Shown piece by piece: positions 4,922-24,535 of a stretch of 24,535 nt of DNA. The DNA comes from a virus. A program made the translations under genes and the position numbers. The stretch's first letter is position 1, and the number at the start of each line of letters is the position of its first letter. The notes under the pieces were generated by a model that worked only from the letters and a program-made list of their open reading frames with translations, had not been told where the DNA came from and made no database searches. The DNA lies in IMG/VR virus record IMGVR_UViG_3300037155_000212, positions 1 to 24,535 of that record; one strand, written 5' to 3'.

Positions 4922-6622
4922 TTATTTTCCGACTGGTTGAGGCATGGAAGGCATTGGGGACATGGGCGGTGTTGCGCCTGGCGGACCCGGTGGCGCGCCC
5001 GGCAACGCTTGGGGCATTTGGTCGTCGAAGTTCATGACCTCGGTTGTCTCCTCCGGTGTGAGATCGAGCCAATCGAGCGTCTTCTGCTTCTGGATCTTCT
5101 GTAGCGGGACGTTGTTCGGGAACTGAGCGGTCGCTACCTGCATCTTTTGAATGGTCTTGAGGCTGTCGGATTCCTTATCAGCTTTCGAGCCTACCTTGAC
5201 CTTGTAGCCTTCGTTCGAGAACGTCTTTGCGAGGTCGAGCGTCTTCGCGGAGAACTTGCCGCTCGGGCCTTTCTTGTGGAGAGTAGGCTTCTCCATCGTG
5301 CCGCCATTCGCCATGACAAGCGCGATAAAGATATTCCCGATGTCCTCCCAATAGCGTTTGTGATATTTCGAAACGTTCTGCGCGCGTTCCTTTGCCTTTG
5401 CTGCCAATATCTGAATCTCCTGGGCGGTCTGCTGTGCGCCGCCCTCGTTCGGGTCTTGATCGCCATTCTCGATGGCTGTAGCGCCTGATACGCCCTGAAT
5501 CTCCCCGTCGATGAAATTGAGCTCGTTGAACACATCGCCCATCTCGGCAATCTGCACTGGATGAAGGACCTTGCTCGGGTCGCCTGGCAATGGATAGAAG
5601 CCGAATGGCGAAGGGTCATAACCTACCGGACTCCATCCTTCCTTGACGGTCGAGTCATAGAAATACATCCCATAGTTCGCGAGTGTGCCGTTCTCCACCT
5701 TCTGGCTCCAGCGTGCGTTCGCGACGAGGTTCAATCCGCGCACCGAATCCGCTCCGCCGTCGCTCCAAATGTCCGTACGCTCGGTATCGCCGGCCCACGA
5801 TGCCCATGAAAATACGTTAATACCCAAAATATCCTCAAGCGGCTTCTGCATGAGGATCTCTGATCCGTTCCCAGTCACGATGACCATGACGACATCTTTC
5901 TTCTTTGCGTCGTCCCATACTTTCTGTTGGCACTCGTTCAATTCCACATAGGTCTCTCCCAATACCGGATTCATCACATCGGGAACGCCGAGCTCATTCA
6001 TACGCTGTGCGCGATCTGAGACAGCGAGTGAGTTTTGGCCGGCTTTGATGAGTCCGGCTTGCGTGGCAAAGAACTCTTTGAGCCGAGTGACAGAGGCCGC
6101 ATCATACAGCGGATTTCGTTCTACGTCCGAGAGCGTGCGATAGATCCCAATGTGGGTAATTCTGCGGCCGGATTGAATGTCCCACGGATTCGCGTAGCGG
6201 TCCACGAACACGTCCTGCGGATCGATGACCTCCATGTGAAACCAGCCGTCGAGGATGTTCATCTTCATGAACGATCGGCCGTAGAGCCATTCCTGCTTGC
6301 GATCGACTTCCTCAAGGATGTCGAGCCTCAAGCGATCGGCGCACGCTTCCCAATAGGCATTCAGGAATAATTCCTTCTGCCCATCATTGCCTTTGTCCTC
6401 GTACTCGTTATCAACCGGCCAATTTGTCTGTGTGAGATAGGTCTTGAGCGTCTTCTTCATGTACGGCACATTGACGCTCTGCCGCTGGGTCAAACGGTTG
6501 ATGATGACCGTATCCCGATAAAGTTCATAGTTCGCGGTCCATTGCGGATGGCGACGCAAGCGCCAATTGAGATCGGCGAGATGATTCTTCTGGATTTGGT
6601 CGATGGTGAGGGAAGTTACCAT
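4922..6622 (-). CDS. Phage portal protein
   Basis: The 566-residue protein has the layout of P22-like portals. An N-terminal helical part (about 1-60) contains IDQIQKNHLADLNWRLRRHP and NRLTQRQSVNVPYMKKT. A clip/stem core follows with VIDPQDVFVDRYANPWDIQ, the portal hallmark for positioning the DNA channel, near residues 130-150. A long helical region contains EIQGVSGATAIENG and QTAQEIQILAAKAKERAQ. The C-terminal tail is Pro/Gly/Met-rich. Portals form a dodecameric ring at one head vertex, nucleate assembly and pass DNA driven by terminase. It lies between the terminase genes (with one opposite-strand gene inserted) and the structural block, the usual place. The GTA-ATG start lacks a Shine-Dalgarno site. 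A promoter candidate lies at 6650-6677. Confidence 0.85.
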   Translation of the reverse strand: MVTSLTIDQIQKNHLADLNWRLRRHPQWTANYELYRDTVIINRLTQRQSVNVPYMKKTLKTYLTQTNWPVDNEYEDKGNDGQKELFLNAYWEACADRLRLDILEEVDRKQEWLYGRSFMKMNILDGWFHMEVIDPQDVFVDRYANPWDIQSGRRITHIGIYRTLSDVERNPLYDAASVTRLKEFFATQAGLIKAGQNSLAVSDRAQRMNELGVPDVMNPVLGETYVELNECQQKVWDDAKKKDVVMVIVTGNGSEILMQKPLEDILGINVFSWASWAGDTERTDIWSDGGADSVRGLNLVANARWSQKVENGTLANYGMYFYDSTVKEGWSPVGYDPSPFGFYPLPGDPSKVLHPVQIAEMGDVFNELNFIDGEIQGVSGATAIENGDQDPNEGGAQQTAQEIQILAAKAKERAQNVSKYHKRYWEDIGNIFIALVMANGGTMEKPTLHKKGPSGKFSAKTLDLAKTFSNEGYKVKVGSKADKESDSLKTIQKMQVATAQFPNNVPLQKIQKQKTLDWLDLTPEETTEVMNFDDQMPQALPGAPPGPPGATPPMSPMPSMPQPVGK

Positions 6623-7217: not shown

Positions 7218-8429
7218 TCACCCCGGCATTCCAGGGAACGGTCGGATGAGTCCGATAGTCGGTGCGGGCATCGGCATGGACTTCGCATTGTGGTTGTAAA
7301 CCGCGTAACGGATAGCGTCCATGCAGTGATCGTTCATCTTGATGGGTTCTTCTTTCGGCTTTTCCGGGTCGTACCGATAGCTGTTGAACTCGTCGATGAC
7401 GTCCTTGCACGTGTCAAAAACAAAAAGCTGGCGCTTGCGTATAAGCTCACGGACACGGTCAATACCAAGGACGACGTTTTTATCGACGTTCTTCACGTAG
7501 AATCCATGCCGCTTCATGTTCTCAATGCGGTCCGGCTCGGCGGGGTCGGGATACACGTCGCGGAAGTTCGTTTCGAGCTGAAGCTTCTTGAGATCTGACT
7601 CTATCTCGTCCTGGACTTTCCCTGACTCGTAATACTCGTTTGTGAGGAAATAGTTACTGTCGTTGTCTATTTTGATGACGACGCCGGCGGCTGCGTTATG
7701 GAATCCAAAGTCGAACCCGAGAATTACATCGCGCACGTTGATCGGCCTGGCCACGATGATCTGGTCTTTCGGAAGGTCATAGACCAGCCCCTCCATCTTT
7801 GAGAACTCTCCGCAATACCGGCGCGCGAACTCCTCCGGGCTCAACCGCTTCTTTTCTGCCTCGAAATGCTCCTTGGGAAAGTTGGGATTGTCGATGGATG
7901 CCCAGGTAAATACCGAGAGGCGCGAGTCCTCGTGCCGTTGCCACGGCAGATAGAACTCCTCGTGAAGCCAGTTCAGGGAATATGGAGTCGTGGTGATGAG
8001 GATCTGGCCGCCGGTCATGGCGACGCGCGACTTGAGAATCGTCCAGGCAAGGCGGGGCATCTGGCCGGCTTCGTCCACCCATTCCCAGTTGGCCGTGATG
8101 CCCTCAGCGCCGGGCGGCTGGTCGAACGATCGAACGAAAACCTTTCCGCCCGTGGGAAGCTCGATCTCGCCCTTTGCTTCCTTGTAATACTTCCGGAGCA
8201 TCGGGAAGTTCTGAAAGAATTTGTCGAGGGTGGATTGCTGGAGGATCTTGTACGTTGGCGCGCCGATGATGCCGTTCCCTTTTGGAAACTCCTGTATCTT
8301 CTTGCCGGCCCAAATGGAACCGAGGAATGTCTTTCCCGACTGGACTCCCGCTATTGCAGCGCCGAATTGCGTTTGAAAATTGAACGCGGCGAATTGCTGG
8401 CCGAATAGCTCAATTCTTTTGTCCTCCAT
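7218..8429 (-). CDS. terL: Terminase large subunit
   Basis: The 403-residue ATPase-nuclease drives DNA into the head and cuts it. Visible motifs: Walker A GVQSGKT at 28-34, Walker B plus catalytic Glu in WEWVDE at 115-120, and the coupling motif ITTTPYS at 145-151. The C-terminal RNase H-like nuclease shows GFDFGF (Asp240), PDPAEPD (Asp295 or Asp300) and NDHCMDAIRY (Asp367/Asp371). All key acidic residues appear present. It is on the short side for TerL, with little sequence before Walker A. It overlaps the small-subunit gene by 20 bases, as expected for coupled translation. The stop lies three bases from that of the converging plus-strand gene. Confidence 0.92.
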   Translation of the reverse strand: MEDKRIELFGQQFAAFNFQTQFGAAIAGVQSGKTFLGSIWAGKKIQEFPKGNGIIGAPTYKILQQSTLDKFFQNFPMLRKYYKEAKGEIELPTGGKVFVRSFDQPPGAEGITANWEWVDEAGQMPRLAWTILKSRVAMTGGQILITTTPYSLNWLHEEFYLPWQRHEDSRLSVFTWASIDNPNFPKEHFEAEKKRLSPEEFARRYCGEFSKMEGLVYDLPKDQIIVARPINVRDVILGFDFGFHNAAAGVVIKIDNDSNYFLTNEYYESGKVQDEIESDLKKLQLETNFRDVYPDPAEPDRIENMKRHGFYVKNVDKNVVLGIDRVRELIRKRQLFVFDTCKDVIDEFNSYRYDPEKPKEEPIKMNDHCMDAIRYAVYNHNAKSMPMPAPTIGLIRPFPGMPG

Positions 8430-8775
8430 CCTTTTGAACGATCGTTAGATTGAAGGGAAGATTGGCGGTAGTAATGTCCGTCTCAGTACGATCGCGATAA
8501 TCGTCTTTGAAAGCGTTCTTGAGGTAGAAAATTGCTCCCGTAGCGGCGTTGGCCGCAAGCCGCTGTACCCACGCCGTTTCGATATAGCTCTCAAGACGCT
8601 TTAAGGCGTCGGGAAATCGCTTCTTATATTCGTTATACGTATCACGGCTGATGTCGAGCTCATAGCAAAGTCCGGCCTTATTCGGCATGAGATGTTTTTC
8701 ATCGCACATCTTGAAATAGGCGTTTACCGCAGTATTGAATACATCTTCTGATTTGTATTTAGGAGGTCGTGCCAT
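8410..8775 (-). CDS. terS: Terminase small subunit
   Basis: The 121-residue protein recognises phage DNA and hands it to the large subunit. It has an N-terminal helix-turn-helix-like part (ISRDTYNEYKKRFPDALKRL, about 43-62), then AWVQRLAANAATGAIFYLKN and KDDYRDRTETDIT, the typical pattern of phage small-terminase/DNA-packaging families. The 121-aa size is normal. It overlaps the large subunit by 20 bases and the preceding 88-aa gene by 17 bases. There is no obvious Shine-Dalgarno site, so translation probably depends on coupling to the upstream gene. Confidence 0.85.
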   Translation of the reverse strand: MARPPKYKSEDVFNTAVNAYFKMCDEKHLMPNKAGLCYELDISRDTYNEYKKRFPDALKRLESYIETAWVQRLAANAATGAIFYLKNAFKDDYRDRTETDITTANLPFNLTIVQKDGGQKN

Positions 8776-10305: not shown

Positions 10306-10460
10306 CATTCGCTGATTCGTATAAGCAGTTCTTCTTTGGTTGCCGCGCGACTGATGATAATTGGCCGCTCACCCTTCCTGCTCAAGATCGCGCCCCATCC
10401 CTGGAGCGGGTGAAACCAGCAATCCCATCCGTTGTAGGTGAAATCAATGCGGGCGGTCAT
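10302..10460 (-). CDS. Small hypothetical protein, 52 aa
   Basis: The frame starts at ATG 10460, overlapping the TGA of the HerA-like gene as ATGA, and ends in a TAG that overlaps the converging stop. The product MTARIDFTYNGWDCWFHPLQ... contains two Trp-rich beta strands, then KGERPIIISRAATKEELL and a C-terminal helix. It is compact enough to fold on its own. The role is unknown; the coupling suggests it works with the HerA-like ATPase. Confidence 0.55.
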   Translation of the reverse strand: MTARIDFTYNGWDCWFHPLQGWGAILSRKGERPIIISRAATKEELLIRISEC

Positions 10461-12232
10461 AAGAAGAGCAACGATTTTGCTTTGACCTTTCCCGAGTCGT
10501 AATCGATTAGGCCGAAAGACTTCAGCCGGCCGCGGGGGTTCGTGTAACCCGTGCTGCGTTCATGCATGTATCCTGCCATCGCGCAGAGGTCGACGTTTGA
10601 GATTCCCTCCGGGTATGTTTCCAACAATGGCGAGAGCAATTTCCGTTCGGGACCGTCAAGCTTAGCGAGGACTGCTTGATGCAACGCTTCCTCCGTGAGC
10701 GGAACATCCGGACTGGACGCGAGTGGTCTTCCCTCCTCGGTGAGATATACCGAACCGGCGGAGTATTCGATAAGCCCTTTCGATTTGAGGTAGCCCCGAG
10801 GGTTCGTATAACCGGTAGAGCGGAAGTGACTGTAGCCGGAAAGAAAGGCTACAAGCTCATTTGGTGGTTTTTGGTTGCCGATGGATTCGCACCAGGCGAG
10901 AGCGTTCAATACGCGCTGCTCCGGACCGGTAAGACCAGAATCGAAGGCAGATGTTGCCGGCTCCACTCTGTGGGGACTAGCGGTCGCAGACGCTGGTGGC
11001 CGTGCGACGGGAGAACTGATCGAAAGCTTCTGCTTAGTAGGGAGTTCGAGAGCCATTGATTCGGGAGAACTGACACCCTCCACTTTTGTAATTATGGGAC
11101 CGAGAGCGGTGATTACCTTTTTAAGATCCTCGGCATATTTGATCCAAGCATTGAGAAGGACCTGCCATTCCCGGTTCGTTTTCGTCTGTTCATCTCTCTC
11201 TTTTTGAATCTCCTGATTGGCATTCCGTTCGATCTCTTTACGGACGGTTTCAACCTGTTTGGAAACCGCTGCTTCTATGGCAACGGGATTCGCTCCCGGC
11301 GCTTTCTCAAGGATGCTCTTTTCGCGTTGAAGCGTTACGATTCGGAGACGTAGCTCGTCCACCGTTTTTGCTTCTTTCTCTGCCTCTTGGGGTAAGTCTG
11401 CAAGCTTGCCAAGTATCTTCTTTATCCCATCTGTGGGAGGCACGACTTTCGTGAGTGATCGTGAACCCACCTTTGGGTGAGTGGTGTGAACGTCTCCAAC
11501 GGTAACCTTCTGGACTTCGTCGGATATTGCAGGGCCAAACGCATAGAACTCGCCCGGCTTCAATGCTCGTAATGACAGCATCTGCTCGCGGGAAGTGAAC
11601 CCGAGCTCGTCCGCCGCGCGCTTCATATCGATGTCCTGTGATGCCCGGCCAATGAGCTTGTTGTTGCACTCTGCCGCTGCATCTTTGCTCAATTTTGAGA
11701 TGCGCTGGGTGGCAAGGATAGCTGAGAATCCCCGTTTGCGACCGAGAGCACAAAGACCGATCACTGCGTCCATCGCTTCGCTTTGACCCTTTTCTGGCGC
11801 GTACGTGTGTGCTTCGTCAATGACGACGATGCAATCGTGCCAGAGGTCCTTTGGTGCATTGATAAGCGATTCAAGGAACAGTCGTACAAAACGCTTCCGC
11901 TCCTGTGGGTGAAGCTCATAGAGATCGATGATCGCGGAGACCTTGAGTTCCAAAAGCTTGCGGGCGAGTAGCGCTGCTGAACGGGGTTCGGCAGGCGTGT
12001 CTCCTCCCTTGCCGGCGAGAACATAATCGTATTTCTCCCGGAGCGTAGCGAACTCCCCCTCTGAATCAAGGATGATGTGCTGGACCTTACCGTGCGATTG
12101 TTCGAGGATACGACGAAGCGCCCACGATTTTCCTCCTCCGGAGTTCGCCTGCACAAGAAGCTTGCTCTCGATGAGCTTGGGAAGATCTATCTCTGTCTGA
12201 TTGTTGAGTTTTATGAAGTGATTCACTGGCAT
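10457..12232 (-). CDS. HerA-like ATPase with duplicated C-terminal winged helix
   Basis: I chose the ATG at 12232, which overlaps the previous stop as TAATG and gives 591 residues. It is a DUF87/HerA-type hexameric DNA motor. Walker A is QANSGGGKSW (28-37), Walker B IVVIDEAHTYAP (135-146), and ATQR (174-177) is a sensor motif. Residues about 282-355 form a coiled coil. The C-terminus holds two copies of a winged-helix-like unit, about 434-500 and 525-585, each with RSTGYTNPRG and K(S)xGLIxY. Such proteins pump or remodel DNA, as in end resection with NurA or plasmid and viral DNA handling. No NurA-type nuclease is seen here. The 108-aa winged-helix gene before it and the coupled 52-aa gene after it may be partners. 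Confidence 0.85.
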   Translation of the reverse strand: MPVNHFIKLNNQTEIDLPKLIESKLLVQANSGGGKSWALRRILEQSHGKVQHIILDSEGEFATLREKYDYVLAGKGGDTPAEPRSAALLARKLLELKVSAIIDLYELHPQERKRFVRLFLESLINAPKDLWHDCIVVIDEAHTYAPEKGQSEAMDAVIGLCALGRKRGFSAILATQRISKLSKDAAAECNNKLIGRASQDIDMKRAADELGFTSREQMLSLRALKPGEFYAFGPAISDEVQKVTVGDVHTTHPKVGSRSLTKVVPPTDGIKKILGKLADLPQEAEKEAKTVDELRLRIVTLQREKSILEKAPGANPVAIEAAVSKQVETVRKEIERNANQEIQKERDEQTKTNREWQVLLNAWIKYAEDLKKVITALGPIITKVEGVSSPESMALELPTKQKLSISSPVARPPASATASPHRVEPATSAFDSGLTGPEQRVLNALAWCESIGNQKPPNELVAFLSGYSHFRSTGYTNPRGYLKSKGLIEYSAGSVYLTEEGRPLASSPDVPLTEEALHQAVLAKLDGPERKLLSPLLETYPEGISNVDLCAMAGYMHERSTGYTNPRGRLKSFGLIDYDSGKVKAKSLLFL

Positions 12233-12558
12233 TAGAAAAGAGTTTGTTCTGCGTCTTCTTTCGGCTTGAACGCCGGCGGCAACACTGGATGCTTGGCTTT
12301 CCACACTTTCGCCATATTTCCCGTGATCTGACAGTGCCGCGCGCCTGCTTCATGGACAAGACTTCCCAGTTGTTCACTGCGAAGTTCTTTTATGCGAGGC
12401 GTGATTACATTGATGGGAAGATTCAAGGCGTGGGCGATTTCGGTATTAGTGTGCGGCCCGGCGTTTCTCAAGTATTCAAGTACCAGGGCCTGACGCGCGC
12501 CGAGATTCTTATGAACCTTCGATAGAGCTTGGAGTGATGTAATTTGAATATCGTTCAT
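12232..12558 (-). CDS. Winged-helix DNA-binding protein, 108 aa
   Basis: Residues about 17-75 form a winged helix: LGARQALVLEYLRNAGPHTN, then TEIAHALNLPINVITPRIKE as the recognition-helix region, then a wing with SLVHEAG. A short polar tail follows. MarR-, ArsR- and similar repressor-like folds share this plan, and there is no metal or ligand motif. It is translationally coupled to the HerA-like ATPase by TAATG. It may be a local repressor or a DNA-loading partner of the ATPase. No Shine-Dalgarno site precedes the ATG. Confidence 0.7.
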   Translation of the reverse strand: MNDIQITSLQALSKVHKNLGARQALVLEYLRNAGPHTNTEIAHALNLPINVITPRIKELRSEQLGSLVHEAGARHCQITGNMAKVWKAKHPVLPPAFKPKEDAEQTLF

Positions 12559-14529: not shown

Positions 14530-15079
14530 ATGCTCGACTTTAACCGCATCAAGGAAATCAAACTGACGGACGTTCTCGCGCGCTACAAGATCGCATTGCG
14601 CTTCAAAGGCGAGTATGCCGCGTGCGCATGTCCGCTGCCAACCCACAAACAGGGGGACAATGCCAAAAGCTTCAATCAACCTCGCGGGGAACTATTGGCG
14701 GTGTTTCTCAGATTCCTGCAACGCGAACAACGGCGGCAAGCGCGGTGGGGATGTCATCAACTTCGTGGCGCTGATGGAAGGATGCCGGGAAAAGGACGCG
14801 GCGCAAAAACTCTCCGAGTGGTATGGAGTGGGACAAAGTAAAACGCCCCAGCACATGGCCGAGGCGTCGAAAGAAAAACCGAAAACAAATACGACAAGCT
14901 ATCAAGACGATAACTCTTCTGCGATAGCAGTCAAGTATATGGTTTCGGTTGATGCCTGGTACGATGAGGTGTCGGTTCGGCTTCCCGATGAATCGGAGGA
15001 GGAACACCGGAGGCGGGTCCTCAAGGGGTTGAAGGCGAAGCTGATTGAATCGTATCGTGCAGGACAAAAGGCTCGCTGA
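14530..15079 (+). CDS. CHC2 zinc-finger primase-like protein, split by +1 frameshift
   Basis: Two frames together encode one CHC2 zinc domain. The first (14530 to about 14673) gives the N-terminus with CPLPTHKQGDNAKSF (Cys34, His39). The second (from about 14675) gives INLAGNYWRCFSDSC (Cys58, Cys63 in the joined product) and GGDVINFVALMEG, the standard continuation. A +1 shift at TTC-A-ATC joins them into about 182 residues. This is the DNA-reading zinc finger of DnaG-type primases, without a TOPRIM catalytic domain, so it needs a partner or acts as a regulator. An AGGGGG plus ATG at 14660 could start the second half on its own. The split could be programmed, a mutation or a sequencing error. 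The rest is Lys/Glu-rich and helical. The ribosome site before 14530 is strong. Confidence 0.7.
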
Positions 15080-15264: not shown

Positions 15265-15705
15265 TTACTGAATCGTGGTCACGGATTTCAATAGTTTGTC
15301 CGCGTCTTCAAGTGATGCGACCGTCATCATAGCGAGCTGAAGGCTATCGAAGCGGGCGTCTATACCGTCTGAAGTACCAAGCTCTTTATCAACCCGAGCC
15401 TCAATGCTTCTGCGGAGGGTATTTCCTACGTCGCCGTTCGTGTAGAGATCACCGTGGTTCTCCTGAAATCCGAGCATGAGGAGTTCGTGCTCCAAGTCAC
15501 TGATTTTTTGGCGAGCCACTTTGATCTGTTCCACAAACTTCAACGCGCCCTTTTTCTCGGCAGATTCATCGAGGAGCTTGCTATAAAGCGCCTGGTGCTT
15601 CTCGCGTAGTTTGTTCTTCGCCTTGGAGCGAAGACTGTCATATTTGTCTGCTAATATGTCGGCAAGCTGCTTCCGGTTCGCCAACGAAAATTGATTAGTA
15701 TTCAT
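15265..15705 (-). CDS. Coiled-coil hypothetical protein, 146 aa
   Basis: I chose the ATG at 15705 (MNTNQFSLANRKQLADILAD). The frame stays open to 15876, so a longer 203-aa form with a basic N-terminus cannot be excluded, nor can a start near 15795. Residues about 15-75 form a long charged helix (DKYDSLRSKAKNKLREKHQA, later QIKVARQKISDLEHELLMLG). The rest is helical with an acidic end. There is no membrane segment or catalytic motif. It follows the second VirD4-like ATPase and may be its cofactor or a structural accessory. Confidence 0.6.
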   Translation of the reverse strand: MNTNQFSLANRKQLADILADKYDSLRSKAKNKLREKHQALYSKLLDESAEKKGALKFVEQIKVARQKISDLEHELLMLGFQENHGDLYTNGDVGNTLRRSIEARVDKELGTSDGIDARFDSLQLAMMTVASLEDADKLLKSVTTIQ

Positions 15706-15859
15706 GATTTGAGTGTTATTTTGTCTTCCCCCTGCTTCCGCAACAATGATGTCGCGAATGTCCGTCGGTAGGCCGTGGCTTATCGTGAGCATCATGTAAA
15801 TGATTATGCGCCGACGCTTATGGATTCGCGCGGGGATTTTCGTGAGGTACGCGCGCCCG

Positions 15860-17101
15860 TTACGCTGAAGACGCAAGGAAGCGATTTATCTTTTCAATCA
15901 CATCTTTCCGTTTTGCTCCGTAGCGTTGAAGCGAAGCCTTTATGAGTTTCGTTGCGTTCGCTTCGTCGCCGCGTTTTTGAATGGTAGGCCAGCCGATGAT
16001 TCTCCGAGCTTCGGGCGCGTCCGTGATCGTCCGGCAGTAGAACTGGTAGCGCGGAAGGGAGGTGATGTGCGTTGCCTGGATCTGTTCCTCGTTCCAATTC
16101 TCCTGGATTGCGCGGGCGTCTTCCCCGGAAACGTTAAAGGTGATCTGCGTGGGACAGTTTGAGAACACGTCCTTTGCAAATGGGAGCTGGTACATTCCCT
16201 GCGAGGCCAAGACAAGCGTGATGCCATATTTGCGTGATTCGGCCAGGAGAGTCCCGAATCTGCCGCCGTGGATGAAATTGTGAACCTCATCGGCCACGAG
16301 CATGAATGGCGGCCGGATTTTCTGCTTTTCTCTCTTGAGCGCGGAGATAGATACCATCGAAACGATGAGCGAACCGAGGATCTGGGCTATCTCTTCCCCG
16401 AGCCGTCCTTTTGAAAACCGGCACACGACAATCTTCTTCTTGTTCATTATCTCCAGAAAGTCGAGGGATTGGGGTTGTCCGATGATGGGAATGATGGACG
16501 GCCGGAGCAATTTGCCGACTTTATTGATCGGAGGACTGAATTTGGACATCTGCTCCGAGTTCCTCAATTTTTCATCGTACTGTTCCTTGAACATTTGAAG
16601 CAAAGGGTTTTCGGTCGCGGCCAACACCTTTTCCCTGAACTTGTCATCTGCCATGAACCGGAAGATGTGAACGGGGGTCGGGTGGTCATAGTACTCGCAT
16701 ACCGCGTCAATGGCGTTGATGATTACCCTGGCGGATTCGTCGCCCCATGCCGAGCCGGCAAGTGATTTGAATGTTGTAAAAAGCGACTCTTTGCCGAGCT
16801 CTAATTCTTCCGGGGAGTTGAAATGGAGTGGGTTAAACGGCGGGACGAGCGAAGCATCAGGGTCTATCCATATAAAGTCGCGCATCCGGCTCTTGGGGAT
16901 GAGTTTGGCGATCTGATCGGCAGTATCGCCGTGAGGGTCAATAAAAAGGCCGCCGTTGCCCTGGCGGATGTGTTCAATGAAGAGGTTTACGAGCAAGGTG
17001 GACTTGCCCATGCCGCTCATTCCGGATATGTTCACGTGTTTGGTCGAATCTATAAAGGACTCGTTGCGCGTTATTGAATCGCGGCCAATGCTTATGTCCA
17101 T
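15860..17101 (-). CDS. VirD4/TraG-like (DUF87) DNA-transfer ATPase, short form
   Basis: The 413-residue protein begins almost directly with the ATPase core and lacks the usual membrane anchor. Walker A is GMSGMGKS (27-34), then GLFIDPHGDTADQIAKLIP (about 51-69), Walker B FMLVADEVHNF (266-276) and the sensor LASQG (298-302). These are the marks of coupling ATPases of type IV secretion and conjugation systems, which feed DNA to the transfer channel, and of related mobile-element ATPases. A C-terminal domain (about 350-413) is basic. With a second ATPase and a replication-relaxation protein nearby, DNA transfer is the best guess. A palindromic operator-like site lies 23 bases upstream of the start. 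Confidence 0.8.
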   Translation of the reverse strand: MDISIGRDSITRNESFIDSTKHVNISGMSGMGKSTLLVNLFIEHIRQGNGGLFIDPHGDTADQIAKLIPKSRMRDFIWIDPDASLVPPFNPLHFNSPEELELGKESLFTTFKSLAGSAWGDESARVIINAIDAVCEYYDHPTPVHIFRFMADDKFREKVLAATENPLLQMFKEQYDEKLRNSEQMSKFSPPINKVGKLLRPSIIPIIGQPQSLDFLEIMNKKKIVVCRFSKGRLGEEIAQILGSLIVSMVSISALKREKQKIRPPFMLVADEVHNFIHGGRFGTLLAESRKYGITLVLASQGMYQLPFAKDVFSNCPTQITFNVSGEDARAIQENWNEEQIQATHITSLPRYQFYCRTITDAPEARRIIGWPTIQKRGDEANATKLIKASLQRYGAKRKDVIEKINRFLASSA

Positions 17102-17123
17102 GGACTCAGCGGATAATTAGCGG

Positions 17124-17143
17124 GATGTTCAATGTTGAACATC
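17124..17143. promoter_or_regulatory. 20-bp palindromic operator-like site
   Basis: GATGTTCAA (17124-17132) and its exact reverse complement TTGAACATC (17135-17143) flank a two-base centre. It lies between divergent genes, 23 bases before the ATPase start at 17101 and 33 before the zinc-finger gene at 17176. It is a typical dimeric-repressor binding site. The GTTC/GAAC halves recall LexA-type boxes, but I cannot assign a regulator. Confidence 0.6.
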
Positions 17144-17175
17144 TTTCTTGGATCGAGTAAGCGTAGGAAAAGCAT

Positions 17176-17388
17176 ATGAGTGAGAAGGACCTTTCTCTGA
17201 AGTTCGTGTGCCCCATTTGTAGCGCGCCCAGGCAAGAGCAATGTCATGTTCAAAAGGGCGTCCTCCGGGATGAGTCTCACTCGGAACGCGTGGAACTCGC
17301 CAATCATGCGGTGCTTGATAGCATCGGCGAGGCGCACGAATCCCCCCACCGAGCGCACGCATTGAGAAACAAGTCGCAGATGTCCTAA
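17176..17388 (+). CDS. Small zinc-finger protein, 70 aa (plus strand)
   Basis: The N-terminus reads LKFVCPICSAPRQEQCHV, followed by a His-rich segment (DESHSERVEL). This is the 'CPxCxAxxxxxC...H..R' zinc finger often seen in phage and actinobacterial small proteins. The rest is polar and helical. An AGGA ribosome site is ten bases upstream. It is divergent from the ATPase gene, with the palindrome between them. A competing minus-strand frame (17092-17493) overlaps it but has no family-like pattern. Role unknown; perhaps DNA binding. Confidence 0.6.
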   Translation: MSEKDLSLKFVCPICSAPRQEQCHVQKGVLRDESHSERVELANHAVLDSIGEAHESPHRAHALRNKSQMS

Positions 17389-17454
17389 TCCGCCGTCGCC
17401 GCCACCATCAAAGGCTGGATTACAGTCCGAGATGGCGGCGAGGGAACGGTTAGT

Positions 17455-17480
17455 GGTGGAATGTCCACCCCCGCTTTTTT
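17455..17480 (+). terminator. Rho-independent terminator candidate
   Basis: GGTGGA (17455-17460) and TCCACC (17464-17469) pair across a three-base loop. CCCGC and six T (17475-17480) follow. It lies 67 bases after the stop of the 70-aa zinc-finger gene and would end that transcript. Confidence 0.5.
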
Positions 17481-17526
17481 GGGAGCGATTCACTTCATTA
17501 TGAGTGATTGGCGGGAGATGTCGAGG

Positions 17527-18168
17527 CTAGGTGAGTTCTGGCTTTCCGGCCTCTTTGAGCTTCTTATTTAATTCGGCTCTGCGCTTAGCCGCCCTCGTTG
17601 GTTCAACAAAATAAAAGTCGAAAAGCGATTCGAGAACGTCAAGATTCCATTCTGCCTCTCCAGTCTCGACTTCGACGATGGCGCCTGTGACCTTGCTCTT
17701 TATCTCGTGAGCGGCGAAATTTCCGATATTGCGGACGGCGTGAAGATCATCAGCAATATGGGATGGTAACTTGCCCGAAGCGATAACCTCTTCAATTTGG
17801 TCGAAGAGGTCCCTCTTTGTTGTACCCGCCTTGTCGCGGAGAATGGCTTGAAGATTACGACGGCTGAGAGCAGCACTGGCCATCGGGCTCAACGAAAGAA
17901 CTGCGCACGCCTCGACAAAATCCTGGTTGTAAGGTTCGGTGACCTCGGTAGGAACTGGACGTAAGGAATCGGTCTTCGGAAACACCGGAATTGTTTCCTT
18001 GTAGACGGCGCCCTGCGTTCGGAGTACGCGGATGATCGCACTGGAGCAAGCGGGACAGACCATTTGCATGAGAGTCCAATGGGAGTCTCCGCACCCGGTG
18101 GTATTAGTGCCGACGAACCCTTCGTGAATATTCTGCTGACAATGCGGACATTTCATCACCGCCAGCAT
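17527..18168 (-). CDS. DUF4145 protein with N-terminal zinc ribbon
   Basis: The 213-residue protein starts with a zinc ribbon: CPHC at Cys7/Cys10, and VCPAC at Cys38/Cys41. A central helical part and a C-terminal DUF4145 domain (about 110-190) follow, with IADDLHAVRNIGNFAAHEIK. DUF4145 is common in mobile elements and near restriction or defence genes, where it is thought to bind partner or nucleotide. The biochemical role is unknown. It ends the transfer-like operon. An in-frame ATG at 18156 (MKCPHC) is an alternative start. The leader lacks a clear Shine-Dalgarno site. Confidence 0.75.
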   Translation of the reverse strand: MLAVMKCPHCQQNIHEGFVGTNTTGCGDSHWTLMQMVCPACSSAIIRVLRTQGAVYKETIPVFPKTDSLRPVPTEVTEPYNQDFVEACAVLSLSPMASAALSRRNLQAILRDKAGTTKRDLFDQIEEVIASGKLPSHIADDLHAVRNIGNFAAHEIKSKVTGAIVEVETGEAEWNLDVLESLFDFYFVEPTRAAKRRAELNKKLKEAGKPELT

Positions 18169-18185
18169 ATCACGACTGGCGAGGG

Positions 18186-18383
18186 CTATGCGTTAAAGGC
18201 AACCGACTTGTTCGCCCACATTGCGGCCTCTTCTAGCTTGGTAATTGCCAACGAGGTTTCGCGAGCTGGGGGAAGTGTTTGCAATACTTCGTAGAACGCT
18301 TTGGCCGCCGCCATCACTTCTTGTATCTTCGCCGATTGCTCAGGCGAAACCTTTTGATATTCGAACGGATTTTTGGTGTCCAT
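18186..18383 (-). CDS. Predicted Acb2/Tad1-type anti-defence protein, 65 aa
   Basis: The protein is one helical hairpin. Residues about 15-35 form helix one (EQSAKIQEVMAAAKAFYEV). The link LPPARETSLAITKLEEAAMW is followed by ANKSVAFNA. The 'LPPxREtSLAiTKLEEAxMWANxxiA' pattern is what I know from the Acb2/Tad1 hairpin domain family. Acb2 sponges bind cyclic oligonucleotide signals of CBASS; Tad1 binds the gcADPR signal of Thoeris. It would sequester a host immune messenger during infection or transfer. The assignment is by motif memory, and the ligand cannot be told. The ATG overlaps the replication-relaxation stop as TAATG, so it is coupled to the transfer operon. Confidence 0.7.
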   Translation of the reverse strand: MDTKNPFEYQKVSPEQSAKIQEVMAAAKAFYEVLQTLPPARETSLAITKLEEAAMWANKSVAFNA

Positions 18384-19210
18384 TAGATAGTTAAAAATGA
18401 GTACGACCTTTGATTCAAGTCTTTCGGTGTGGCAAAAATCTCCCCGCCAATATCGCTCTTATACGCCGCTTCACTCGCAAGCCAGAACATCCGATGGTTC
18501 AATTCTTTGTTCAACTGCTTCAAGAGGTTCTCGCGGCGCTCGTCCGTGCGCTGGACGACGATCACCCTGAACTGCCGAAAGTCCGTCCACTCTTTTTCGC
18601 ACGCATCCGTCCCGTAATAGGTGTAATACTTCCCGAGCTTGCGCATGATGGACGGCTCGCCGTCGCGGTAATGGCCTATTTTCGCCCGCTCCATTTCGAG
18701 GAAATAGTACAGGGTATTCTTTCCTTCCGGCTTCGCGGGGTCGGTGATGGCGAACATCGAATCAGGTGAAACGGTACACTTCAAGTCTGACTGTTGCCAA
18801 TAGAGCTTCAGCTTATTCTTCGTGGAGAATTTCTTGAGTGCGATATGAAAAAAGGAAATCTCAAGTTCGTGGTCTAAGGTTCTCTGAGAGTGTTCGTCAA
18901 AGGTCTTGGCATCGGGCCAGATTGTCTCGACGAACTTCACGCCTTTATCGGAGAGCCCATAGACGTAGGTAACGCCGCCGCTCTCACGATCAAAGTCTAA
19001 ATAGGGAAGGCGGTTTACCAGTCCTGCTTTATAAAGAAGTCCGAGAGTATGCCGGACGGAACGCTTGTCATTGTCGTTGGGTTCCCGTGATCGGATGAGG
19101 CGCGCGACATCGTTGGTTCTCAGGCAGAAGTATTCGGCTAACAGTTCAATCGCTTCTCTCTTAGCGCTCGTGATGCGACGGCGGGGCTCCTGGCTGGGGG
19201 TCTTGGTCAT
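18383..19210 (-). CDS. Replication-relaxation family protein
   Basis: I chose the ATG at 19210 (MTKTPSQEPRRRITSAKREA); the frame runs on to 19324 but only inside the upstream ATPase gene. It gives 275 residues. Residues about 14-90 form a winged helix (LLAEYFCLRTNDVARLIRSR, then SVRHTLGLLYKAGLVNRL) followed by GGVTYVYGLSDKGVKFVE, the hallmark of the Replic_Relax family. Family members occur on conjugative plasmids such as those of Bacillus and in actinobacterial elements, next to FtsK/VirD4-type ATPases. They are thought to assist DNA relaxation or act in place of a classical relaxase. The central and C-terminal parts include YYFLEMERAKIGHYR. It overlaps the ATPase gene by 50 bases. Confidence 0.8.
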   Translation of the reverse strand: MTKTPSQEPRRRITSAKREAIELLAEYFCLRTNDVARLIRSREPNDNDKRSVRHTLGLLYKAGLVNRLPYLDFDRESGGVTYVYGLSDKGVKFVETIWPDAKTFDEHSQRTLDHELEISFFHIALKKFSTKNKLKLYWQQSDLKCTVSPDSMFAITDPAKPEGKNTLYYFLEMERAKIGHYRDGEPSIMRKLGKYYTYYGTDACEKEWTDFRQFRVIVVQRTDERRENLLKQLNKELNHRMFWLASEAAYKSDIGGEIFATPKDLNQRSYSFLTI

Positions 19211-20705
19211 TCCCTTCAGTATGCGGTATCTCAAGGGAATTACCAGAGGGGTTATCCCCAGGGCGTTTCTGGCTGTATTCAGCGGAAGTATTGGCCTTAA
19301 GGCGAGCAGCCATTGATTCGGCACGGTGTTTATCTATCGGCGGCTTGTCGGCTGTCCACTTGAATATCGGCTGGGTTCCGGCAACACGAAAGACCGCCTG
19401 GTACTTGGGTATCCGCGCGAGATGGTTCACGTTGTAGGGATGGACTATGTTTGTAAATAACGAGAGTTGTTCTTCGATGTGGAAGATGATGTAAGTCCCC
19501 ACATTCCCGAAGATCGCGTGTCTAATGTCCGGCGTGAGTTGGTCGATATATTGATTGCCCACGGTAAGCCTCAATCCCAATCCGCCGGCCACAGATAAGA
19601 TCTTGGCGAAGGATGATGTCTGGAAGTTTTCGAACTCATCCACAAATAAGTGGTAAGGGATAATCTCTGAGGGGTCGAGCTTTGTTCGTTTGAATGCGGC
19701 TTGTTGGAATTGGGATACGAGGAGTGCGCCGTAAATCTCTCGCGGCTCGCCGATGCCGCCGAGATCAACAAGGATAATCCGCTTGTCATTCATGGCTTTG
19801 GATATATTCAATCCGCCGCCGCTGAGAATTGTTTTCAGACTGTCGTTCTGGGTGAAGTCCGTCATGCGCGACGTGAGCGGCTCGTATTCTTTTGGCGCGG
19901 GCCAATTGTTCTGCCAATACTCCCATCGTGTGGGATCGATGGTCTTCAGTGCGTCGAGTATTGCTTGCTTTCGCCGGGGAAGAGTGAAGATGTCCTCGAT
20001 GTCAGTGAAGGATGTACCGGGAACCTTGAGGAGGGTGTAAATGAGCCGGGTGAGTATCGGCTCTGCCCGCTTGAGCGTCGTGTCGCCCCGCAATACCATC
20101 TGTTTAAGATCGCCGACGAGAAACTCCGGGTTTGATACTCCGCCAAGGATGTCGAGGGGGACCGGGTGTTCGAGGTCGAGATAAATACAATCTGTTACGC
20201 GGTTTTCGGGGAGAAGCCCACAAATATCTCTTATCAATCCTCCTTTGGGGTCGAGGACTGCAACGCCTTTGCCATGTGCGATGTCGTGCATGACGAGTTG
20301 AAGTATCTGGGTAGATTTCCCATGTTGCGTCATACCTGGAATAAAAATATGCTGTGCACGGACGTTTGAAGGTATCGGCGTGGGGTAATTGGCTGACTGG
20401 ATTACAGGGGTGGGGTCGCGTCGTTCGCGCTCTGCTTCGCGTTCGCGCTTGCGGCCTTCCTCGCGACGGATGCGTTCTTTTTCGCGCTCGATTTGTAGAC
20501 GAAGCTGATCCACGGTCGTTTGATGTTGCTTTGCTTCCTTCTCAAGAGCCTTTCTGTGTTCGACCTTTTCTCGCTCTTGCTTCTCCCACTCTTGCCGAGC
20601 TGGTTTCAAAAAGAGCTGACGGTCTTCCCAAGCGCAATTGTCTGGAATATGCACGCGCCTTTCGACGTAGTCGTTCCAACTCTCGGGAGGATCCCACTCG
20701 CTCAT
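19161..20705 (-). CDS. VirD4/TraG-like DNA-transfer ATPase with coiled-coil N-terminus
   Basis: The 514-residue protein has a charged coiled coil at about 40-97 in place of membrane helices. The ATPase core follows: Walker A GMTQHGKS (124-131), VAVLDPKGGLIRDI (148-161), Walker B HLFVDEFENFQ (352-362) and GNQYIDQLTPDIR (383-395). The pattern is that of conjugative coupling ATPases. The preceding gene, overlapping by ATGA, encodes a two-helix membrane protein with its own coiled coil, so anchor and motor may be two separate chains that pair. The C-terminal tail is Pro/Asp-rich and disordered. Its partners are probably the replication-relaxation protein and the second ATPase at 15860. Confidence 0.8.
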   Translation of the reverse strand: MSEWDPPESWNDYVERRVHIPDNCAWEDRQLFLKPARQEWEKQEREKVEHRKALEKEAKQHQTTVDQLRLQIEREKERIRREEGRKREREAERERRDPTPVIQSANYPTPIPSNVRAQHIFIPGMTQHGKSTQILQLVMHDIAHGKGVAVLDPKGGLIRDICGLLPENRVTDCIYLDLEHPVPLDILGGVSNPEFLVGDLKQMVLRGDTTLKRAEPILTRLIYTLLKVPGTSFTDIEDIFTLPRRKQAILDALKTIDPTRWEYWQNNWPAPKEYEPLTSRMTDFTQNDSLKTILSGGGLNISKAMNDKRIILVDLGGIGEPREIYGALLVSQFQQAAFKRTKLDPSEIIPYHLFVDEFENFQTSSFAKILSVAGGLGLRLTVGNQYIDQLTPDIRHAIFGNVGTYIIFHIEEQLSLFTNIVHPYNVNHLARIPKYQAVFRVAGTQPIFKWTADKPPIDKHRAESMAARLKANTSAEYSQKRPGDNPSGNSLEIPHTEGNDQDPQPGAPPSHHER

Positions 20706-21145
20706 AGGATATTGTCCTCCGACACATCTCCTTCTATGTTCTTAAGATCCCGCAACTGGCGTTCCAGCTCCGCAATTTCGGATATTCGCCTACGCCGTTC
20801 TTCCCATACTTCGTTAAGGTGTTTGTCGGACTGCTTAACAGTTGCTTCGTGTTGTAACTGCTTCCTTTGTTTCTCTTCTTGCTCGTTTTTTTCTAGATTT
20901 GCTGCAGCTAAACTCAGATCTTCATGGGTCGGATCTGTATCGGGCCAGCTGTAAGGATGCATTTTCCGTTCTCTATGCTGTCGAATGAGCGTCCATACAA
21001 AAGTAACTATCAAAGCGATTGCGAATAATTCGAGGCGGCTCGTACCGGAGATGAGGGAAATAAGGAAAGCAATAAAGCCAACCACAACGAATATTGCCAG
21101 GAAATCTGCCCAAAATGGAGTTGGCTTCCATTTTCCTTGAGTCAT
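20702..21145 (-). CDS. Membrane protein with coiled coil, likely anchor of the transfer ATPase
   Basis: The 147-residue protein has two membrane helices (about 12-33, FWADFLAIFVVVGFIAFLIS, and 38-56, LELFAIALIVTFVWTLI). A cytoplasmic segment and a long coiled coil (about 82-135, rich in Glu, Lys, Gln and Arg) follow. VirD4-type ATPases usually carry such helices in the same chain; here the ATPase gene overlaps it by ATGA, which suggests a split coupling protein. The start codon lies inside a 9-bp direct repeat, and an inverted-repeat element sits directly upstream. An upstream frame would join it without interruption if that element were absent. Confidence 0.7.
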   Translation of the reverse strand: MTQGKWKPTPFWADFLAIFVVVGFIAFLISLISGTSRLELFAIALIVTFVWTLIRQHRERKMHPYSWPDTDPTHEDLSLAAANLEKNEQEEKQRKQLQHEATVKQSDKHLNEVWEERRRRISEIAELERQLRDLKNIEGDVSEDNIL

Positions 21146-21320
21146 ATCAGTCGCCGCACCGTCCTAGCGGTAGCGTACCCCGATAGGGGCGAGCGAGAGC
21201 GACGGGCATCCTTCTGCGCAAGCCCGGTAGGGTGGAGGGACGAAGAGCAATAGCGAGGAGGAGAGAAACAGAAGGATGCCCGTCGGTAGACGAGGGACGG
21301 TGCGGCATACCAGTCATATC
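21140..21320. repeat. Nested inverted-repeat element flanked by 9-bp direct repeats
   Basis: Outer arms CCGCACCGTCC (21154-21164) and GGACGGTGCGG (21295-21305) match over 11 bases. Inner arms of 17 bases (21200-21216 and 21269-21285) also match perfectly. The loop of 52 bases is purine-rich on the plus strand, and the left inter-arm segment holds CCCC-GATA-GGGG. AGTCATATC occurs at 21140-21148 and 21312-21320, five and six bases outside the outer arms. It could fold as a DNA cruciform or as a stable RNA. The direct repeats resemble a target duplication of a small inserted element. A minus-strand frame of 120 codons crosses it, but the perfect pairing argues that the region is not coding. Confidence 0.75.
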
Positions 21321-21835: not shown

Positions 21836-21925
21836 GGAAGAGTGGCCGAGTGGTTGATGGCATCGGTCTTGAAAACCGACGTACCTGAAACGGTATCGGG
21901 GGTTCGAATCCCTCCTCTTCCGCCA
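21836..21925 (+). tRNA. trnS(uga): tRNA-Ser (anticodon UGA)
   Basis: The 90-base gene folds completely. A seven-base acceptor stem pairs GGAAGAG (21836-21842) with CTCTTCC (21915-21921), followed by a G discriminator and an encoded CCA. The anticodon stem is TCGGT/ACCGA around CTTGAAA, with TGA at 21870-21872. There is the long variable arm typical of tRNA-Ser, and the T-loop TTCGAAT. Its 3' half is a common site for prophage integration, and the excisionase-like gene next to it supports that. It could be a host gene marking the element edge or a phage-carried tRNA. Confidence 0.95.
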
Positions 21926-22079
21926 GATTCGTACATTAACAGTTGTTAATCCGCCACGTGCAATACACGTGCAGTTAATCGTCCAATCTAGAGTTTTGAG
22001 CGTTTGTAGCGTCGTTTAAAATCAGTAAGTTGAGTGTTATCAATGCCAAGAGGCAGTCCGAATCCCTCTCCCTCCGCCA
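21903..22079 (+). repeat. tRNA-Ser 3' end and degenerate second copy (att-like)
   Basis: The tRNA 3' end (21903-21925) recurs at 22057-22079 with 19 of 23 bases identical, again ending CCGCCA; the two are 154 bases apart. The second copy has the sequence expected for the 3' end of another tRNA-Ser, but no matching 5' half. It looks like a scar or att half-site left by integration. An eight-base inverted pair, GTAAGTTG (22025-22032) and CAACTTAC (22097-22104), frames it. Confidence 0.5.
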
Positions 22080-22388: not shown

Positions 22389-24056
22389 TTATGCGGACTT
22401 TGCCGACAGTCCGAGAGACTGCTTGCGCCAGTCCATCGGGATTAAGGCGAGCAAATCGTCGAGCGAGAGTGGAAGCGACTCAGGTCGGGTCATCATGTTT
22501 TCAATCGACTGCGGGCTCAGTTGAACCAGCTTCATCTGCATGCGGATAAAGCGGGGAGACACACCGTCGATGCCGGCCAATTGGGCGATGTTACTGGATT
22601 TTCCCGTAGTGATCTGCTCGTACCAACGACGCGCGCGAGCAATGGCTTTGAGAATGGCCTGGCGGCTGGCGTCAGTGGTGATATTTGTATCGCCGACGAC
22701 AAGGCGTACCGCGCGGCCCTGCCGAACATGTCGGAAGGGACATTCAATCGACGCAATCTGCGGAAGATCGATAGAAATTTCACCGCAGCCAAGAATCTCA
22801 TTGAGGAGCGCTGGCACGCGCAGGCGAATCTCGACGTAAGTCTGGTGGATAACAACGCGATCGATGACAGTCCTTAGAAACTGCGCGCGGTCCGCGGTGA
22901 TGCGCTCGCGCCAACTCTGCGCCGTCGCAGCAGCTTGCGCAATGATCTGCGCGAAAATACCTTCTGGCGGGGCCACGGTTGTCTCATCACGAAACGCGGC
23001 AAGCAACTGGGTAGGCGTTTGTAGCCATTCAAGCATGCGATCAACCACAGCCTTTTCGAGATCATGCGCCGGGATGCGGCCTGGGGCGTTGCTCGTTCCG
23101 ATCTTCTTAATTACGGCCTGCGAGGTGTAATAGCGATAACGGCGGCCGTTCTTGTTGGCATGTGTCGGCGTGTAGAGCGTGCCGATAGCATCGAAAAGAA
23201 TGCCGGTCAGAATACTCTCCTTGGTGGCGCGCACCTTACGCCGCTTGCCTTGAATGTTTTCGTCGAGCACCGCCTGCACTTTGTCCCAGGTTCCGCGATC
23301 TATGATGGCGGGATGCTCTCCAGGATAAGTTGCCTTCTTGTGTTTGATCAAACCGATATAGTGCGGATTGCGCAGCATCATGTACAGCGGACCGCGGAAG
23401 AAGTGATTACCCCGTCGGCTCATGATGTTGTTCTCGCACAGCCAGTCATGCAGGCTATGCACATTGCCGAGGCGCAGAAACTCGTCGAAGATTGTGCGCA
23501 CCGTGACGGCTTCCGGTTCGTTGATGATGAGTTTCCGGTCCTTGGCCGTGTATCCGAGCGGTACGGTGCCGCCCATCCACATTCCCTTCTTCTTCGAGGC
23601 AGCAATCTTGTCACGTATGCGCTCGCCAGTGACCTCGCGTTCGAACTGCGCGAAGGATAGAAGGACATTGAGCGTGAGGCGACCCATCGAGGACGTGGTA
23701 TTGAACTGCTGTGTGACCGAGACGAAGCTGACGTTGAACTTATCGAATTGCTCGACGAGTTTGGCGAAGTCCGCCAGCGAGCGGGTCATCCGGTCAACCT
23801 TGTAAACAACCACTACCGAAACCTTGCCTGCTTGAATGTCGGCCATCAGTCGCTTCAATGCCGGTCGCTCCATGTTGCCGCCGGAGAAACCACCGTCGTC
23901 GTAGTCCGTGGCTATTAGTCGCCAGCCCTCGTGCTGTTGGCTCTTTACGAAGGCCTCGCAGGCCTCGCGCTGAGCGTCGAGCGAGTTGAAAGATTGCTCG
24001 AGACCTTCTTCCGAGGATTTGCGGGTGTAGATGGCGCAACGAATCTGGTTGCTCAT
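22389..24056 (-). CDS. Large serine recombinase
   Basis: I chose the ATG at 24056, which overlaps the DUF2924 stop as ATGA and has AAGGAG upstream. It gives 555 residues. The resolvase domain (about 5-150) shows AIYTRKSSEEGLEQSF with the catalytic Ser at 14 or 15, DDGGFSGG, and VVVYKVDRMTRSLADF with the active-site Arg residues. A recombinase domain follows (about 180-280, GTVPLGYTAKDRKLIINEPE). Next comes the position of the usual zinc ribbon, but it has no Cys pairs (TPTHANKNGRRYRYYTS), as in a proteobacterial subfamily. The long C-terminus binds DNA. It cuts and joins DNA at att sites, probably for the module or island itself. GC is higher than in the phage part. Confidence 0.9.
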   Translation of the reverse strand: MSNQIRCAIYTRKSSEEGLEQSFNSLDAQREACEAFVKSQQHEGWRLIATDYDDGGFSGGNMERPALKRLMADIQAGKVSVVVVYKVDRMTRSLADFAKLVEQFDKFNVSFVSVTQQFNTTSSMGRLTLNVLLSFAQFEREVTGERIRDKIAASKKKGMWMGGTVPLGYTAKDRKLIINEPEAVTVRTIFDEFLRLGNVHSLHDWLCENNIMSRRGNHFFRGPLYMMLRNPHYIGLIKHKKATYPGEHPAIIDRGTWDKVQAVLDENIQGKRRKVRATKESILTGILFDAIGTLYTPTHANKNGRRYRYYTSQAVIKKIGTSNAPGRIPAHDLEKAVVDRMLEWLQTPTQLLAAFRDETTVAPPEGIFAQIIAQAAATAQSWRERITADRAQFLRTVIDRVVIHQTYVEIRLRVPALLNEILGCGEISIDLPQIASIECPFRHVRQGRAVRLVVGDTNITTDASRQAILKAIARARRWYEQITTGKSSNIAQLAGIDGVSPRFIRMQMKLVQLSPQSIENMMTRPESLPLSLDDLLALIPMDWRKQSLGLSAKSA

Positions 24057-24535
24057 ACCGCTGCGCTCCTTGCCCTGAGCATCAAGCCGAAGAATGCCGG
24101 CCCCGACCACTTGGTGCCGGTGATTGCACGCGCAATCTCAGAGAGGCTGCGGTAGGTCGTCCCCTCATACTCATAGCCGGCTTCGAGGACCGTGACCTCG
24201 TGCAGTTTGCCGGCATGCTCGCGGACGTAGCGGGTGCCGATCTTCGGACGCAAGCTCTTCTGGGCAGGAGTCTCACCGGCGACGCTTTCGTCGGCCAACG
24301 CGCGCAGCTTGCGAACGGTGGACTCTTTGAGCCCGCCGAAAGCCTTCTCCTGAATGCGGTAGGCCAGGATTGGGATCAACGTTTCGCGGCGCAGAGCCGG
24401 GCTGGGCACCCGGTCGAATAGATCGCGCCAAAGCCTTAGAAGCTCCTTCCGCTCCATTGTCAGCAGCTGTTCCAAGAGTCGGTAAGCCACCTCCCGCCTG
24501 GTGGGCTTTGATTTGGTTATCTTATGCTTTTCCAT
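24053..24535 (-). CDS. DUF2924 protein
   Basis: The ATG is the last three bases of the window, so upstream context is unseen and a longer form cannot be excluded. The 160-residue protein has a basic N-terminus and a helical part (LTMERKELLRLWRDLFDRVP, then RRETLIPILAYRIQEKAFGG). Its beta-rich C-terminus includes YEYEGTTYRSLSEIARAITG and WSGPAFFGL. This is the DUF2924 pattern, commonly encoded directly before serine recombinases in proteobacterial mobile modules. It probably binds DNA or assists the recombinase, though the mechanism is unknown. It overlaps the recombinase by ATGA. Confidence 0.85.
   Translation of the reverse strand: MEKHKITKSKPTRREVAYRLLEQLLTMERKELLRLWRDLFDRVPSPALRRETLIPILAYRIQEKAFGGLKESTVRKLRALADESVAGETPAQKSLRPKIGTRYVREHAGKLHEVTVLEAGYEYEGTTYRSLSEIARAITGTKWSGPAFFGLMLRARSAAV

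Follow-up and report, generated by a model that had tools for sequence, protein, structure and literature searches.

The IMG/VR virus record IMGVR_UViG_3300037155_000212, which was analysed over its whole length of 24,535 nucleotides (24.5 kb) and is here referred to as the window (W), contains a block of genes resembling parts of a conjugation machinery. This block is located on the minus strand between positions 15860 and 21145 and encodes, in the order of transcription, a membrane protein, a VirD4-like ATPase (ATPase2), a replication-relaxation protein (RR), a small open reading frame, a DUF4145 protein and a second VirD4-like ATPase (ATPase1), with the terminase genes following on the same strand. 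Its first genes show operon-like overlaps, with a stretch of 4 nucleotides shared by the genes of the membrane protein and ATPase2 and a further overlap between ATPase2 and RR. Family matches and predicted transmembrane helices bear out the two VirD4/TraG-like ATPases, the replication-relaxation protein and the membrane/coiled-coil partner that a first-pass annotation had placed here on the strand of the terminase. The block and the DNA element preceding it comprise the following features:

21151 to 21309, minus strand: nested inverted-repeat element of about 150–160 bp, located 5 bp ahead of the first gene of the operon, candidate origin of transfer (oriT) or nick origin
20702 to 21145, minus strand: membrane protein with two predicted transmembrane helices (by hydropathy) and a coiled coil
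19161 to 20705, minus strand: ATPase2, VirD4/TraD-like coupling-protein ATPase with an N-terminal coiled coil and no transmembrane helix (TraG-D_C, E 2e-4; phrog_5156, 8e-20; NCBIfam SXT TraD, 3e-9)
about 18383 to 19210, minus strand: RR, predicted MOBC-like relaxase or nicking initiator (Replic_Relax, PF13814) with a winged helix and a PD-(D/E)XK-like domain
18186 to 18383, minus strand: small open reading frame of 65 amino acids in a variable slot between RR and ATPase1, with no homolog in related contigs
17527 to 18168, minus strand: DUF4145 protein, variable cargo (phrog_1305; weak PADLOC match to PD-T7-4), absent at this site in relatives
15860 to 17101, minus strand: ATPase1, VirD4/TrwB-like, 413 amino acids, no N-terminal membrane anchor (TrwB_AAD_bind, E 1e-6; TraG-D_C, 1.2e-5; phrog_5156, 1.5e-43)

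The central protein of the block, RR, matches the family PF13814 with 44.6 bits (cut-off 25.3; E 2.3e-11). Whereas the first-pass annotation had seen no classical relaxase, the family PF13814 is the one that CONJscan lists as the relaxase MobC, and in streptococcal integrative mobilizable elements (IMEs) its members are accompanied by a VirD4 coupling protein (PMC5357655). For MOBC relaxases, a relationship to PD-(D/E)XK nucleases is described, with a winged helix as N-terminus in TraX (PMC12857230). An AlphaFold model of RR (pLDDT 73.9) contains a winged helix, which fits MarR proteins with a Z of about 11, followed by an alpha-beta-beta-beta-alpha-beta core. The matches listed from the PDB for this fold are winged-helix proteins only and say nothing on a nuclease domain, and the best PDB match of the model, at a low TM-score, is FokI. 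FokI combines a winged helix with a PD-(D/E)XK domain. We thus assign to RR a predicted N-terminal winged helix and a C-terminal PD-(D/E)XK-type domain, the latter based on topology, the low-scoring FokI match and conserved residues. Among these, P148-D149, E171, K190 and Y194 are invariant in all 14 RR proteins compared, including gp27.3 of phage SPO1 and gp146 of phage G, and these may correspond residue by residue to the conserved acidic, lysine and tyrosine residues of the active site in TraX. No RR relatives in phages or plasmids were found by tblastn, although a fold search reached full-length viral matches in the Bacillus phages JL and G.

Both ATPases resemble type IV coupling proteins in their TraG/TrwB-type nucleotide-binding domain, with ATPase1 scoring above the cut-offs of TrwB_AAD_bind and TraG-D_C, and ATPase2 slightly under both while matching TraD models at 3e-9 to 1e-6. 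The N-terminal transmembrane helix typical of such proteins was detected by hydropathy in neither of the two. In relatives, the protein encoded upstream of ATPase2 contains at least one predicted helix in most cases and two in several, and at one locus (L049; G and L numbers denote related contigs or genomes and loci) a transmembrane segment is fused to ATPase2. The separate helix protein and its fusion at this locus suggest that the upstream protein could serve as the detached anchor of ATPase2, and thus that the two may constitute a split coupling protein. Coupling proteins that lack a transmembrane domain but have membrane partners form a recognised class (PMC7431656). In close relatives, ATPase1 is the slowest-evolving of the proteins compared, below the portal-like protein, the terminase and RR, while its synonymous sites are near saturation, which indicates very strong purifying selection as judged from these alignments. 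A recent transfer of ATPase1 between phages was rejected in light of the near-saturated synonymous sites (dS above 1), and its apparently uniform conservation at 70–95% turned out to be an artefact of close search patterns, since the copy in G025, which was found via the portal-like gene, shares 34% identity. A sequence search of the PDB with ATPase1 and ATPase2 gave no match, and a structure model of ATPase1 (pLDDT 48.6) was too poor for use.

The block recurs beyond the window. Eight IMG/VR contigs contain relatives of ATPase1 that are 70–95% identical to it, and wherever these contigs extend far enough (six of six) two phrog_5156 ATPases enclose an RR gene. The order ATPase2-RR-ATPase1 is also present in several bacterial genomes and in a seventh IMG/VR contig, G025, which was retrieved via the portal-like gene and in which it is maintained at an identity of only 32–34%. 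Most of the portal-found contigs that lack the block end short of the expected place of ATPase1 and are thus not counter-examples. The first-pass annotation had proposed a small parasitic host of the Candidate Phyla Radiation (CPR, Patescibacteria), a proposal that did not hold. ATPase1 shares 85–91% identity with proteins of three Acidobacteria metagenome-assembled genomes compared to 24–35% with its distant VirD4-like homologs from CPR, which are mostly larger proteins residing in bacterial loci with no detectable RR neighbour. On the basis of these identities, we assign the host to soil Acidobacteria and not to CPR.

The relationship between the block and the phage genes is best defined in G017, where a complete 52-kb prophage (116036-168126) resides on a 232-kb Acidobacteria contig and is bounded by an exact 23-bp direct repeat at 116013 and 168104. 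One end of this prophage is marked by a tRNA-Met and a tyrosine integrase, the middle is occupied by structural genes and the opposite end by the ATPase-RR block. The 51.6-kb record G006 is organized in the same way, with a repeat of 22 bp and an integrase related to that of G017 (Pfam Phage_integrase). Because a single prophage with attachment-site (att) repeats encloses both block and structural genes, the ATPase-RR block and the capsid genes form one integrated element, as the first-pass annotation had proposed in describing a conjugation-like set within a tailed-phage genome. Misassembly or the adjacency of two independent elements was rejected, as the order recurs in independent contigs and in the defined prophage. 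Packaging genes together with integration at att repeats identify the virus as a temperate tailed phage, and in its excised circle the block would adjoin the integrase. The block is shared by two non-homologous head-tail sets, one found in G006, G017, G003 and G002 and the other in W, G001, G005, G007 and G008, a distribution that we interpret as wholesale module exchange. The early regions of these phages contain genes for a primase, a single-stranded DNA-binding protein (SSB), an exonuclease or ERF and a resolvase.

The inverted-repeat element is located between an excisionase-like gene and the operon. In the window, its outer arms (21153-21164 and 21295-21306) comprise 12 nucleotides and its inner arms (21200-21216 and 21269-21285) 17 nucleotides, all of them pairing perfectly, and an arm of 17 nucleotides was reached in none of 300 dinucleotide shuffles. 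Copies initially identified in W, G003 (partial), G005, G006, G007, G025 and at three loci of Acidobacteria genomes were extended with a covariance model (R1) trained on seven copies, which located a divergent copy upstream of ATPase2 in G008 (E 5e-7) and, when run against 399 genomes of the class, returned only the three known genomes and G217, where the block again follows the element. The two R1 copies outside the training set (G008 and G217) thus both reside at a block, and in total the element directly precedes the block at 11 loci. At L172 and L171, other genomes of the class contain ATPase2-RR-ATPase1 (G239) and ATPase2-RR (G353) sets of greater divergence; no copy of the element is detectable near them within the short stretch examined. 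In an alignment of nine sequences, 25 of the 37 pairs have changed in both partners, a value equalled in none of 500 shuffles and collapsing in slid controls; this alignment is fitted to the model, and the unfitted alignment of seven sequences gives 13 of 37. G-U pairs are confined to the ends of helices and occur inside the two long ones in none of the nine sequences, although in about 39 cells there both partners have changed. At the prophage locus L048 (6232-6429), the left arm matches the reverse complement of the right arm exactly over a long stretch, as though either had been copied from the other. The lack of interior G-U pairs and this extended exact arm copy suggest that the element is maintained as inverted repeats at the level of DNA, by selection or conversion, rather than by RNA folding. 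Since it adjoins a relaxase-type gene, an oriT or nick origin would be the natural reading of this candidate site. An assignment as dispersed repeat or transposon was rejected for the lysogen genomes; in G017 and G019 the element is present as a single copy, located at the block.

The first-pass annotation had named VirB4 as well as a relaxase or oriT as components to be sought. The latter two have counterparts in RR as relaxase-type protein and the upstream element as oriT-like candidate. Conversely, a search that among the mating-pore families was directed at VirB4 only (TIGR00929) found none in G005, G006, G008 or the prophage contig of G017, and a weak match in G007 falls inside ATPase1. 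In three lysogen genomes, VirB4-like genes of nearly full length are found on other contigs, with scores under the curated cut-off of the family. With regard to a possible IME, an integrase and RR are present in the phages, VirB4 was not found in the phage records and the oriT is a candidate only. Because VirB4 is absent from the phage, we presume that it would be at most mobilizable with a helper and not self-conjugative. Mobilization with a helper is established for CloDF13 (PMC7431656, PMC11389934).

Taken together, we tentatively favour, at a probability that we place still short of even, the view that the block constitutes a MOBC-type mobilization module, consisting of a relaxosome and its coupling protein as in CloDF13 and IMEs, which would confer helper-dependent mobilization on a temperate tailed phage of Acidobacteria. 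In the proposed mechanism, the winged helix of RR would bind the element after excision and its PD-(D/E)XK-like domain would nick the DNA there. The nicked strand would be displaced by rolling-circle copying with help of the phage primase and SSB, and the membrane-anchored VirD4-like ATPases would dock to the complex and then pump it. The most likely use of such a process would be to mobilize the excised phage circle by conjugation via a resident type IV secretion system, besides packaging into virions. That the lineage in this way is also a functional mobilizable element, whose DNA leaves the cell either in virions via the terminase or as a strand nicked at the inverted-repeat site and exported by its own VirD4-like pumps and a resident secretion system, is a more doubtful proposition. 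The first-pass annotation had already suggested a phage that could move by two routes, and the oriT-like site adds to this idea.

The comparison with known systems illustrates both the basis of this assignment and its weaknesses. CloDF13 mobB/mobC and the streptococcal IMEs likewise combine a VirD4-type coupling protein with a MOBC-family relaxase and contain no mating-pore genes, and the IMEs also encode an integrase, whereas in our case the module belongs to a complete tailed phage, the relaxase is flanked by two ATPases and the membrane anchor is separate. In the RefSeq record of CloDF13 (L137), which is typed as non-mobilizable, the reading frames around mobB/mobC seem broken, and database searches may miss MOBC homologs for this reason. 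Several observations speak against mobilization. The lytic phage SPO1 shows a matching order in gp27.5-27.3, with three small membrane proteins, a VirD4-like ATPase (gp27.4, homologous to ATPase1 over its full length; hhalign E 6e-10) and RR (gp27.3), and in such a phage conjugation is not an obvious use. VirB4 was not found in the phage, whose interaction with a helper is only proposed, two ATPases exceed the need of CloDF13, and the strong purifying selection on ATPase1 suggests a core phage role. Finally, RR shows no significant sequence match to CloDF13 MobC, in a comparison with a poor record.

A plausible, if second-ranked, alternative is a replication or segregation module, in which RR would act as nicking initiator in a role similar to gpA of P2, the element would be the origin and the anchored ATPases would tether or move replicating DNA, with no intercellular transfer. 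This would be in line with the PHROG label of RR relatives, 'replication initiation by nicking', and with the presence of RR and VirD4-like ATPases in SPO1 and phage G. In phage G, gp155/156/146 include a VirD4-like ATPase and an RR with the same invariant residues; both are large lytic Bacillus phages, differing from ours in the presence of a partition protein and, in SPO1, of a single ATPase of 906 amino acids, and no inverted repeats comparable to the element were found near their gene pairs. The Tyroviruses (Thrax gp11-18) and the B. pumilus phages Novomoskovsk and Bolokhovo also combine a type IV secretion or FtsK-type ATPase with a replication-relaxation protein in tailed phages. In the accessible parts of their descriptions, the authors interpret these genes, which occur with ParM and ribbon-helix-helix (RHH) proteins in phages of a different host phylum, as serving plasmid-prophage maintenance, and describe no origin element. 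In the early regions of our phages, primase and SSB are present, whereas the proteins scanned, which were not an exhaustive set, included neither another recognisable initiator nor a replicative helicase; because no other initiator was recognised, RR may start phage replication, also or solely. Conversely, replication itself does not require two VirD4-type pumps and a membrane anchor. The mobilization and the replication readings are not mutually exclusive.

Less probable is that the element acts as an RNA leader regulating the operon instead of a DNA site, which would leave the ATPase-RR block with no known origin here. A strong RNA fold and the location of the element, which in several phages ends few bases from the first start codon, would fit such a role, but it shows no match in Rfam, where only tRNA and sub-threshold matches elsewhere were obtained, and both the missing G-U pairs and the arm of L048 fit inverted repeats at the DNA level better. 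Very unlikely, in our view, is a function in anti-phage defence or superinfection exclusion, where ATPase and nuclease would act as in HerA- or MADS-like systems. Although ATPase1 matches PADLOC mad8 (E 3e-18), a nuclease-like RR adjoins and the DUF4145 cargo resembles PD-T7-4, mad8 matches all VirD4/HerA-like ATPases tested except ATPase2 of the window and thus reports a shared fold, and the block is kept across the phage group together with a conserved DNA site, unlike variable defence cargo. A motor for DNA entry or late-stage genome injection, as conceivable for membrane-linked VirD4-type ATPases that move DNA, is hardly credible, since the genes are located away from head and tail genes, at that edge of the prophage which circularization brings next to the integration genes, ATPases synthesized in the cell would be too late for entry, and the site-specific nickase would be left unexplained.

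The remainder of the window contains genes of a tailed phage and a probable prophage edge. Among the structural genes named in the first-pass annotation, the terminase has a clear family match, whereas portal and scaffold are assigned by position only. The following features were identified:

1 to 687, same strand as the terminase: scaffold candidate, assigned by position, no family match
4922 to 6622, minus strand: portal-like protein, assigned by position, no family match
7218 to 8429, minus strand: terminase large subunit, clear family match
8410 to 8775, minus strand: terminase small subunit (GP3-like), clear family match
14615 to 15079, plus strand: DnaG-type primase zinc-finger protein; its relative at L042:6905-7927 contains zinc finger and TOPRIM domains
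15265 to 15876, minus strand: conserved coiled-coil protein encoded immediately after ATPase1, also adjoining the block in L047 and L171
21581 to 21787, plus strand: HTH_17 excisionase-like protein, family match
22056 to 22079, plus strand: degenerate copy of a tRNA-Ser 3'-end, probable att side of the prophage edge, preceded by a conserved phage region (21957-22045); edge layout by analogy with G017

A complete tRNA-Ser(tga) is located inside the phage edge at 21836-21925, followed by the degenerate second 3'-end copy, and a similar tRNA-Ser is found at the same place in G025, which suggests a phage-carried tRNA copy beside its att site. Beyond this probable edge, a large serine recombinase and a DUF2924 gene (22389-24535), unrelated to the tyrosine integrases of relatives, may be part of a host island, a neighbouring element or an integrase swap. 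A third ATPase of the HerA/DUF87 type with a C-terminal extension (10457-12304) has no homolog in related contigs. The accessory genes among those of the module vary, with the DUF4145 gene in the window and, in G005, a small HNH-like gene that separates ATPase2 from RR (L038:13638-14156), and these variable positions constitute a cargo slot, possibly with a role in defence. In the deep-sea thermophilic phage D6E, a VirD4-like protein (gp23) adjoins an integrase, with a DUF4352 protein nearby but no adjoining RR annotated.

The individual parts, a VirD4-like ATPase, a MOBC-family RR and a tailed prophage, are of known kinds. What is new is their constant association, in integrated phages of Acidobacteria, with an origin-like DNA element whose pairs covary; no description of module and element together was found in the literature searched, although subscription papers may hold one. 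The described prophages add defined examples to Acidobacteria, a phylum with few described phages, and the element and operon offer a concrete handle on the unexplained VirD4-RR pairs of the model phages SPO1 and G. Gene transfer by phages is usually considered apart from that by conjugative elements, and a phage with a relaxase-like protein, two pumps and an oriT-like site would join the two routes, if our interpretation is true. In that case, phage DNA could spread in soil, where the diffusion of virions is poor.

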